From the NCBI GenBank assembly GCA_947456095.1, contig CANGPX010000010.1, positions 1 to 35,023 of the forward strand: a stretch of 35,023 nucleotides of DNA, given 5' to 3'. This document shows positions 23,402 through 27,071 of this stretch, one piece after another. How positions within the stretch are numbered: position 1 is the first letter of the stretch; every line of letters begins with the position of its first letter. The notes under the pieces were generated by a model, which was not told where the DNA came from, did not search any database, and worked only from the letters and a program-made list of their open reading frames with translations. The translations under genes were made by a program, and so were the position numbers. The stretch is from Acidimicrobiaceae bacterium (GTDB lineage Bacteria > Actinomycetota > Acidimicrobiia > Acidimicrobiales > RAAP-2).

Positions 23402-24367
23402 CTAGAAGTAGATGATGCGCTTTGCGCGTTCGACGACTTCGTCCAAGTCATCAGTCCAAGCACCCGTTGAGAGGTACTTCCACCCATCATCGCAGGCAAT
23501 CGTCACAATGGTGGCTGATTCACCTTCTGGGATGAGGCTGGCACAGCGCACAGCCCCGGCCATGATGGCTCCAGAACTAATGCCAACGAAAAGCCCTACT
23601 TCGATCATTTTCCGGGTCCATTCGAGCGACTCACGAGGCCGAACAACCGTTTTTCGATCAAGGAGTTGCTCGCCATGATTGTCGGTGAACACCGGAGGGA
23701 TGTAGCCATCATCTAAGTTCCGAAGACCATCAACCATTTCACCCGATGGTGGCTCGATCGCCCACAGTTGAATGGCAGGGTTCTGTTCTTTTAAGAACTT
23801 GCCGACGCCCATCAACGTGCCTGAGGTGCCGAGTCCAGCAATGAAGTGGGTGAGATCAGGGACGTCACGGAAGATTTCTGGACCCGTTGTGCGGTAGTGC
23901 GCTTCAGGGTTGGCCGGATTTGCGTATTGATAGAGAAAGACCCATTCCGGGTGCTCGGCTGCCAACTGGTGCGCCATGCGAACCGCACCGTTCGAGCCTT
24001 CGCTACCTGGCGACTCAATGATCTCTGCACCCCAAACAAGCAGGAGTTGTCGACGCTCAATCGACACATTTGCCGGCATCACCACTTTCAAGTGGTAGCC
24101 CTTCAACTTGCAAACCATGGCGAGTCCAATGCCGGTATTGCCTGACGATGGCTCAATGAGGATTTGATCTGGAGCGCCGGGAATGAGCAGTCCGTCTCGC
24201 TCAGCTGCCTCAATCAAATTCTTGGCAATACGATCTTTCACACTGCCGGCCGGGTTGCGGCCTTCCAGCTTGGCCAAGATCCGCACGTTGGGGTTTGGGC
24301 TTAACGCCGAGACATCGACGATTGGTGTCTCACCAATGAGATCGAGGACTGACTGGTAAACAGCCAT
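23402..24367 (-). CDS. cysM: cysteine synthase, CysM-like (O-phosphoserine sulfhydrylase type)
   Basis: [76 protein letters not shown]; adjacent to cysO. Confidence 0.94.
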
Positions 24368-24372
24368 CGTCC

Positions 24373-24654
24373 TCAGGCCGCCCCACCGGCAACTGCAGGA
24401 AGGATCGAGACCTCGTCACCACTTGCAACAGGAGTCTCAAGGCCACCGGTGTAGCGGACGTCATCGTCGTTCACGTAGATGTTGACGAATTTGTGGAGTG
24501 AGCCATCAGCGCTAAAGACCTGGCCAGCAAGACCGGGGTGTGCAGCCACCATTTGGTTGAGCACTTCGCCAATGGTCGAGCCTTCAAAAGCAACCAATGC
24601 CGCACCGCCAGTTTGCGGGCGGAGCACCGTAGGGATACGAATCGAAACCGTCAT
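24373..24654 (-). CDS. cysO: MoaD/ThiS-family sulfur carrier protein, CysO-like, ending -GGAA
   Basis: MTVSIRIPTVLRPQTGGAALVAFEGSTIGEVLNQMVAAHPGLAGQVFSADGSLHKFVNIYVNDDDVRYTGGLETPVASGDEVSILPAVAGGAA*; 5 nt upstream of cysM. Confidence 0.95.
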   Translation of the reverse strand: MTVSIRIPTVLRPQTGGAALVAFEGSTIGEVLNQMVAAHPGLAGQVFSADGSLHKFVNIYVNDDDVRYTGGLETPVASGDEVSILPAVAGGAA

Positions 24655-24762: not shown

Positions 24763-25356
24763 TTAGTTGTTGCGACCCAGTCGGTCAATGACGTGCCAAG
24801 CAGCGGGCAACATGAGAGCAGCAATCAGCATCTTCACGAGATCGCCAACAATAAACGGCGAGAACCCGTATTCAACAGCCATCGCCCAGGTCACGTGCAG
24901 GTCAACTTTAAGCCACGTCACGCCAAAGGCATAGATGATCGCTTCAGCCAAGAACATCGCCCAGATGGCTTGTGCGACGTGACGGTCCCGACCAGTTTGA
25001 GCAATGAAACCAAGCACCACAGCGGCCACAATGAAGCCCAGAAGGTAGCCAAACGTTGCTGCTGGGTAGCCCGAGGCGGCGCCAGCAAACCATGGGAGCC
25101 CAGCCATACCAGCGCCGACGTAGAGCACCATGGACAGCCCACCGCGAACCGCACCCAGCGAAGCGCCAGCGAGAAGGACGCCCAAGGTCTGTCCAGTCAT
25201 TGGAACGGGCGAGAAGGGGATTTCCCACTGAGCCAAGAGTCCAGTGAGTGCCGCTCCGGCGAACACCAAGACAATGTCCATCAACAAGCTGTGTGGAAGA
25301 GCGTCGGCAAGCACTCGGCGCTTTGGCGAAGGAAGGGCAATAGCAGTGGAAGACAT
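24763..25356 (-). CDS. bioY: BioY family biotin transporter S-component
   Basis: PFSPVPMTGQTLGVLLAGASLGAVRGGLSMVLYVGAGMAGLPWFAGAASG...GYLLGFIVAA typical BioY. Confidence 0.94.
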   Translation of the reverse strand: MSSTAIALPSPKRRVLADALPHSLLMDIVLVFAGAALTGLLAQWEIPFSPVPMTGQTLGVLLAGASLGAVRGGLSMVLYVGAGMAGLPWFAGAASGYPAATFGYLLGFIVAAVVLGFIAQTGRDRHVAQAIWAMFLAEAIIYAFGVTWLKVDLHVTWAMAVEYGFSPFIVGDLVKMLIAALMLPAAWHVIDRLGRNN

Positions 25357-25414: not shown

Positions 25415-25816
25415 TTACTGAGTGACGACCAGTTCTTCGGTGACCGTGCCCTCAACAATCGAGTAGCTGCGAAAAACCGGAACAATGTCGCGCAGAGACA
25501 CCAGCACGTAGTGCCAACCTGGGTCGGGAGCTTGGCTCACGTCAGTCGGCGAAGGATACGCCTCAGTGTGCGTATGCGAGTGATAGACCCCAATGACGTC
25601 AAAGCCTTGTTTTGCTGCTGCCCGGTCAGCAGCGAGAAACGCACCTGGGTCCACGGTGTAGACCATGGCCGAATGTGCCACGTTCTCGGTTGGAACCACA
25701 TGGTCCACAACCTCGCTGGCGTAGTCGCCAATGAGAAGCCCACAGGCTTCTTCAGGTACGCAACTGAGACAATGTGCAATGACCTCGAGTTGGGTTGCGT
25801 GAGAAATCGTGAGCAC
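25415..25816 (-). CDS. mec: Mov34/MPN/PAD-1 (JAMM) metallopeptidase, Mec-like; start uncertain
   Basis: VPEEACGLLIGD; IGVYHSHTHTEAYPSPTDVSQAPDPGWHYVLVSLRD..FRSYSIVEGTVTEE; intact JAMM HxH-x7-S-x2-D. GTG 25816 aligns with remembered Mtb Mec N-terminus. Confidence 0.9.
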   Translation of the reverse strand: MLTISHATQLEVIAHCLSCVPEEACGLLIGDYASEVVDHVVPTENVAHSAMVYTVDPGAFLAADRAAAKQGFDVIGVYHSHTHTEAYPSPTDVSQAPDPGWHYVLVSLRDIVPVFRSYSIVEGTVTEELVVTQ

Positions 25817-26054: not shown

Positions 26055-26573
26055 GTGGCTAGGGCGAAACAACAACTCGCAAAGCGAGCAGAAAAAGCAG
26101 CGAACGATTCAGGTGACAAGGTCGTTGCGACGAATCGTCGCGCCCGGCACGACTACGACATCTTGGAAACCTATGAATGCGGAATTGTCCTGCAAGGCTC
26201 TGAGGTCAAGTCGCTTCGAGAAGGCCACGCTGTCTTAAGCGATTCGTTTGCTCGAGTTGAAGGTGGCGAACTTTGGCTCATTGGCATCCACATCCCACCG
26301 TGGCGTTTTTCCCATGGATTTGGCAGCCATGACCCTGATCGCCGACGAAAGCTCCTGGCGCATCGATCAGAGATCAAAGACATGAAGCTTGAACTTGAGC
26401 GCCAGCCAGTCACCCTTATCCCGCTGAAGCTCTACTTCAAAGAAGGTCGTGCCAAAGTGGAACTCGGTCTCGCCAAGGGCCGAAAGACCCACGACAAACG
26501 CCACGCACTTGCTGAGCGCGATGCAAAACGCGACATGGACCGAGCCCGCAAGTCAACGAGTCGGTTCTTGTAG
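26055..26573 (+). CDS. smpB: SsrA-binding protein SmpB
   Basis: ATNRRARHDYDILETYECGIVLQGSEVKSLREGHAVLSDSFARVEGGELWLIGIHIPPW...RKLLAHRSEI...GRAKVELGLAKGRKTHDKR; GTG start. Confidence 0.97.
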   Translation: MARAKQQLAKRAEKAANDSGDKVVATNRRARHDYDILETYECGIVLQGSEVKSLREGHAVLSDSFARVEGGELWLIGIHIPPWRFSHGFGSHDPDRRRKLLAHRSEIKDMKLELERQPVTLIPLKLYFKEGRAKVELGLAKGRKTHDKRHALAERDAKRDMDRARKSTSRFL

Positions 26574-26646: not shown

Positions 26647-26995
26647 GGGGATGATTGGTCTCGACTTTGGCTGTCGAGGTGAGAGAAGCGAGCCGTGGTC
26701 TCCGAATCCACGTTAAAGAGTCGGGAAAAACAATAAATGCCAAGCCTACGCTTGCGCTCGCCGCTTAAATAACGGCGACGTCCACCTGCTCCCAGTTCCC
26801 CGGGGTAGATCTTGGGCGTCATCCAGGGGAACTTACCGCCGAGAAGTGCCTACGGTCTCAGCGGGAAATTGAAGTGAGCTACGGGTTCACCACGATGCCG
26901 ACGGCACGGTAAACCCCGACAATCTTTCGTCGGCTGCGCTCGGAGAAGGCTCACTGAGGTACCGAAGGACCCGGGTTCGATTCCCGGCATCTCCA
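26647..26995 (+). ncRNA. ssrA: transfer-messenger RNA (tmRNA)
   Basis: 5' GGGGATGATTGGTCTCGAC; 3' CCGGGTTCGATTCCCGGCATCTCCA; acceptor GGGGATG pairs with CATCTCC (one G-U); tag ORF 26739-26768 GCC AAG CCT ACG CTT GCG CTC GCC GCT TAA = AKPTLALAA*; immediately downstream of smpB. CCA not encoded (sequence continues ACAAAT). Confidence 0.95.
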
Positions 26996-27071
26996 CAAAT
27001 TGGGCTGATTCCTCCAGTGAATCTCGCTCGAAACGACAAGTGAACGGTTTGCCCTCGGGCTTCTGCCACGT

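Follow-up and report, generated by a model that had tools for sequence, protein, structure and literature searches.

The sulfur carrier CysO of the actinobacterial genome considered here is encoded with two alanines beyond the Gly-Gly at its functional end. The 35,023-nucleotide stretch of DNA that was analysed (the window) holds cysO together with cysM and mec, and we think it probable that these genes specify a CysO-CysM-Mec cysteine pathway in which a CysO-GG-AA precursor is trimmed, most likely by Mec, and then used. Mature CysO almost certainly ends at Gly-Gly, the tail being clipped off, because among tailed homologues the residues PAVAGG are unchanged while the second tail position drifts freely. 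Such tails are common in Actinomycetota.

The cysO product is a ThiS/MoaD beta-grasp sequence with Gly-Gly at its functional end: it matches Pfam ThiS (1.4e-16), scores above the NCBIfam SAMP1 cut-off and aligns from end to end with the 93-residue M. tuberculosis CysO (3dwg_C; E 3.7e-27), the alignment covering residues 1-91 of the window protein and placing Gly-Gly on Gly-Gly. The last residue of 3dwg_C is the second of these glycines, just as a preliminary description of this DNA had stated; the window gene, whose final codons are GGT GGG GCG GCC TGA, reads on to the ending ILPAVAGGAA that the same description had given. Since the window protein ends in GGAA, whereas the M. tuberculosis protein ends in GG, we file it as a tailed variant. 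The features discussed are collected in Table 1.

Table 1. Features of the window, with positions counted from its first nucleotide
Feature	Position	Strand	Basis or remark
cysM, PLP cysteine synthase of the M. tuberculosis CysM (O-phosphoserine/CysO-dependent) type	23402..24367	(-)	best PDB match 3dki
cysO, ThiS/MoaD/SAMP1-fold sulfur carrier precursor (putative), 93 aa	24373..24654	(-)	Pfam, NCBIfam, 3dwg_C match
tail codons GCG GCC (Ala-Ala)	24376..24381	(-)	adjoin Gly-Gly codons GGT GGG (24382-24387)
bioY, biotin transporter S component	24763..25356	(-)	Pfam BioY 9.7e-37
mec, JAMM (Prok-JAB) metalloprotease, 133 aa, GTG start	25415..25816	(-)	Pfam, motif, AlphaFold2 model
smpB	26055..26573		adjoins tmRNA gene
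tmRNA gene	26647..26998	(+)	

The three genes, the JAMM partner and an E1-rhodanese protein in the genome are common to the window organism and to the CysO-CysM-Mec system of M. tuberculosis. As previously described, a CysM-like gene follows cysO directly, its start lying 5 nt past the cysO stop. Its product is nearer to M. tuberculosis CysM than to the O-acetylserine enzymes (3dki, E 3.4e-90, against 2.6e-66 for cysteine synthase B, 2bht), and an arginine in its LRN motif aligns, by hand count on the alignment, with Arg220 of the M. tuberculosis enzyme, a residue that serves O-phosphoserine. The JAMM motif reported for mec is indeed intact: the protein (Prok-JAB, 4.1e-22) has HSH-x7-S-x2-D together with a catalytic Glu in PEEACG, giving a metal site of Glu24, His80, His82, Ser90 and Asp93, and these E, H, H, S and D residues are kept in 90/90 aligned Mec sequences, from tailed and untailed species alike. 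An AlphaFold2 model (pLDDT 91) predicts an MPN fold, and a Foldseek search with this model found 2kks and P. furiosus JAMM1 (TM 0.84) as the closest folds, the JAMM1-SAMP2 complex 5lda included. Against the haloarchaeal desampylase profile window Mec scores 70.7 bits, well below the cut-off of 130.

The mec gene lies 0.76 kb upstream of cysO. The earlier characterization of it as nearby was right, but omitted bioY, which stands between the two – a further difference from M. tuberculosis. The same placement of bioY is seen elsewhere in this genus (L004, L006, L007 and L009), and bioY was not detected between mec and cysO in other relatives; we do not think it part of the cysteine pathway. An Rfam search of the window returned no riboswitch, the tmRNA gene being its sole match, and a promoter scan gave nothing above chance. 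The tmRNA gene and the adjoining smpB form an ordinary arrangement.

How widely tails are spread was gauged from 97 distinct cysO + cysM loci, counted after duplicates of the window, and a single locus whose cysM is broken, had been taken out. CysO ends at GG in 29 of these, and in the other 68 it carries 1-14 extra residues, usually two, a ratio that reflects a sample chosen by similarity to the window and is not a phylum frequency. The comparison of homologues that the preliminary description had proposed thus reveals C-terminal extensions in most of the loci sampled. The nearest relatives, from separate MAGs, end in GGAA, GGAN and GGAR, and tails as unlike as AA, SL, AW and stretches of 10-14 residues occur. 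Tails in independent MAGs, both from this genus and from its neighbours, rule out chance and sequencing or assembly error as the source of the tail.

A phylum-wide search extended this picture, stop positions revealing both tailed and untailed states in many families. Nineteen of 20 further loci from that search are tailed, most having been picked because they looked so; examples are GGMA beside cysM in family f76, in the large, Streptomyces-like genomes G269, G380 and G386, and GGC, GGCCRPRDL and GGR in family f70. In one cysM-linked CysO (L180 1778-2392, G381:C1) the tail consists of some 40 repetitive residues (SEHAPRHLSAGGA) and has the look of a read-through repeat element. Tails in relatives and in other families rule out a peculiarity of one genome, and the oddity that the preliminary description implied for the window organism disappears. 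We found no statement in the open literature that CysO is tailed in many actinobacteria; subscription papers lay mostly outside that search, and we make no claim of priority.

A critical issue is where, along this C-terminus, selection ceases to act. Codon changes were counted as the fewest changes (parsimony) on one tree, a quick IQ-TREE reconstruction from the CysO core plus CysM (97 rows, tail columns left out, near-identical MAGs included). Over the 68 tailed loci the six codons for PAVAGG (P6 to P1) show 0 amino-acid changes against 14, 21, 23, 25, 25 and 27 silent ones, and Gly-Gly is invariant in 68/68. At P2', the second residue of the tail, changes at codon positions 1/2/3 number 18/24/14, as in an unselected codon; at P1' they number 12/8/22, indicating mild constraint. 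The contrast between P1 and P2' is large (p=6e-10), though it is one of parsimony counts on a tree that contains near-identical MAGs. Ala, Ser or Thr occupies P1' in 61/68 tailed loci and P2' in 17/63. The tail as a conserved signal is thus ruled out for P2', which evolves neutrally, and P1' keeps a bias toward small residues. Residues past Gly-Gly accordingly lie outside the functional protein in these loci, and the need for tail removal that was proposed from the window alone is strongly supported. A border of selection at the bond after the second glycine is what would be expected if a protease with a preference for small P1' residues makes the finished end there.

Mec is a plausible candidate for that protease, and the likeliest. 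In the CysO-Cys adduct an acyl shift produces a peptide bond, and it is on this shift that the likeness of the tail to Mec's substrate rests: since CysO-Cys is CysO-GG plus one residue, a tailed CysO would resemble Mec's own known substrate. The candidacy draws further on the finding that no A-type (cysM-linked) cysO occurred in the JAMM-less genomes considered below. Mec of M. tuberculosis hydrolyses the CysO-cysteine adduct (PMC3227635), and comparable cuts are made by related enzymes: CsRpn11 cleaves the precursor of CsUb at precisely the bond that follows Gly-Gly, CsJAMM processes the precursors of SAMP (PMC6043591), and the cleavage of MoaD-MoaE by DRJAMM yields a C-terminal Gly (PMC8832034).

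The distribution of JAMM genes fits Mec as the processor. A JAMM gene was found in 52/61 relatives and in 178/197 genomes of the class; mec lies within about 1 kb upstream in most tailed loci, and in eight genomes where mec is out of view at the tailed locus a genome search recovered a JAMM gene. Twelve JAMM-less genomes were followed up, three of them 70-88% complete, such that the JAMM gene may be missing from the assembly, and none (0/12) has an A-type cysO. Of the 12 carriers read in these genomes 11 end at GG, eight of them adjoining thrC, and one genome is without a carrier. The exception is a carrier ending GGSTA (L141, G046:C298) in a genome that is 70% complete and in which no JAMM was found. 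Taken by themselves, the thrC-linked carriers of JAMM-less genomes are without tails by hand count, a pattern that is only suggestive. In a further genome mec lies beside cysM and no intervening cysO was found (L139 1739-3175, G048:C206), and the genome's carrier, which lies elsewhere (L127), ends GGC.

Co-occurrence is insufficient as proof of processing: untailed A-type cysO also has mec, and with Mec accompanying both forms co-occurrence alone cannot distinguish trimming of the tail from the reaction on CysO-Cys. The point bears on an alternative, that the tail is removed by a general or different peptidase and that Mec acts on CysO-Cys only, as in M. tuberculosis. Mec would be needed for CysO-Cys in any case, so on that account its presence says nothing about the tail; tails are diverse (from AA, SL and AW to stretches of 10-14 residues); another peptidase might trim two alanines; and mycobacteria offer a parallel in MoaX, for whose Gly82-Ser83 cut in M. 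tuberculosis the protease had not been identified as of 2015 (PMC4326299). What makes us regard this alternative as unlikely, if deserving of serious attention, is that the small P1' residue in 61/68 loci and the invariant Gly-Gly suggest one site-specific enzyme, that archaeal JAMM enzymes do exactly such cutting of carrier precursors (PMC6043591), and that the window's Mec-like protein is the single JAMM protein found in the genome, the assembly of which is 80% complete. By eye, no Mec position was found to divide tailed and untailed species cleanly, which is to be expected of one activity that acts in the two alike.

The same genome has one ThiF-domain E1 protein, encoded on contig C98 (L115 1111-2277), in which rhodanese and ThiF domains are fused in a chain of 388 residues. 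Its rhodanese domain is N-terminal, the reverse of M. tuberculosis MoeZR, where that domain is C-terminal (PMC3227635). ThiS-family proteins number three: window CysO, one on contig C39 and one on contig C1, the last ending AAAGG-stop. The C39 carrier (L003 1498-1776) lies directly after thrC, is 44% identical to window CysO and ends VPAVAGG-stop; some relatives have a tail on this thrC-linked protein (GGC, GGCA, GGCC, GGSV, GGQ). A second close carrier that ends exactly at GG raises the thought that it, and not tailed CysO, serves cysteine synthesis, the tailed protein having some role other than that of a thiocarboxylated carrier. We judge this highly improbable: the Gly-Gly of tailed CysO is under absolute purifying selection, cysM and usually mec are linked to the tailed gene and not to the GG-ending one, and window CysM keeps an M. 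tuberculosis-type sequence including the equivalent of Arg220.

If the tail is removed, there is the further question of whether its removal is put to use. The preliminary description held that Mec, by processing the precursor, adds a proteolytic gate to cysteine synthesis. On such a reading pro-CysO would be inactive until Mec acts, and proteolysis would control the pathway. Control over a precursor that has to be cut is conceivable in principle, and residual uncut MoaX has been seen in mycobacteria (PMC4326299). If the tail served as a regulatory gate it should be conserved, whereas beyond P1' both the length and the sequence of the tail vary without constraint. Tailed and untailed states alternate, moreover, with about four changes on the tree, and no separate control point would be gained from a gate, Mec being already required downstream. 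Tails also accompany overlap with the next gene: the stop of cysO and the start of cysM share nucleotides, as TAGTG or over 4 nt, in 44/68 tailed loci against 0/29 untailed ones. For these reasons we set the gate aside as improbable.

The association between tail and overlap calls for some caution. On the tree, overlap and tail each change state only some four times. A test of independent pairs yields 1 to 4 pairs, too few for significance; because such pairs are so few, the contrast of 44/68 with 0/29 partly reflects shared ancestry. In the window itself cysO and cysM do not overlap. Gains or losses of the tail have occurred several times. Being free in sequence and length, coming and going in this way and accompanying overlap, the tail accords better with a side effect of overlapping genes that is tolerated than with a device for regulation. 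We suggest that the tail represents relief of a constraint: once trimming after Gly-Gly exists, the stop codon can move.

The mechanism that we favour can be set out as follows. CysO would be made as a precursor, CysO-GG-AA, and a protease, most likely Mec, would cut after the second Gly and free Ala-Ala. The exposed Gly-Gly would then probably be adenylated and thiocarboxylated by the genome's single E1-rhodanese, after which CysM would join thiocarboxylated CysO to aminoacrylate derived from O-phosphoserine, and the CysO-Cys product would be hydrolysed by Mec. One GG|X cut would thereby serve both maturation and product release, and trimming of the tail would need no new chemistry, because CysO-Cys is itself Gly-Gly plus one residue. 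The cysO stop codon would thus be free to drift past Gly-Gly towards, or onto, the cysM start.

Carriers with residues past Gly-Gly that are removed by an adjoining JAMM protease are found in the QbsE/QbsD (thioquinolobactin) and HcyS/HcyD (Wolinella) systems. These belong to other pathways and have other tails, and the protease there is for maturation, whereas Mec would add product release. Tailed CysO would be an addition to the JAMM-matured sulfur-carrier precursors already known in other pathways. The archaeal SAMP/CsJAMM and CsUb/CsRpn11 systems (PMC6043591) are alike in the cutting of GG-tailed precursors by JAMM enzymes, and window CysO scores above the SAMP1 cut-off and the model of Mec is similar to P. 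furiosus JAMM1 in its complex with SAMP2; they differ in acting in protein conjugation too. In MoaX of M. tuberculosis (PMC4326299) and MoaD-MoaE of Deinococcus (PMC8832034) the carrier is likewise cut after its terminal Gly, by a JAMM enzyme in Deinococcus, but what follows the carrier there is an entire enzyme domain and not a dispensable tail. The operon, JAB peptidase included, has been on record since 2006, in a paper that also suggested release at the terminal glycine for fused forms (PMC1779556).

A broader reading, which we offer tentatively and with some doubt, is that CysO is a precursor across a large part of the Actinomycetota, the textbook M. tuberculosis form being one state, untailed, among many; that Mec-type JAMM proteins do double duty; and that the tail in effect imitates the product, the stop codon having moved onto the cysM start for translational coupling. 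On the account given here the well-studied CysO of M. tuberculosis, for which maturation is unnecessary, would be unrepresentative of the pathway in many actinobacteria, and deletion of mec would be predicted to stop cysteine synthesis at two points, ahead of thiocarboxylation and at CysO-Cys. If true, the account would also explain the origin of the tail in a simple way: a protease that frees the product by cutting after Gly-Gly, whatever follows, would untie the stop codon from Gly-Gly.
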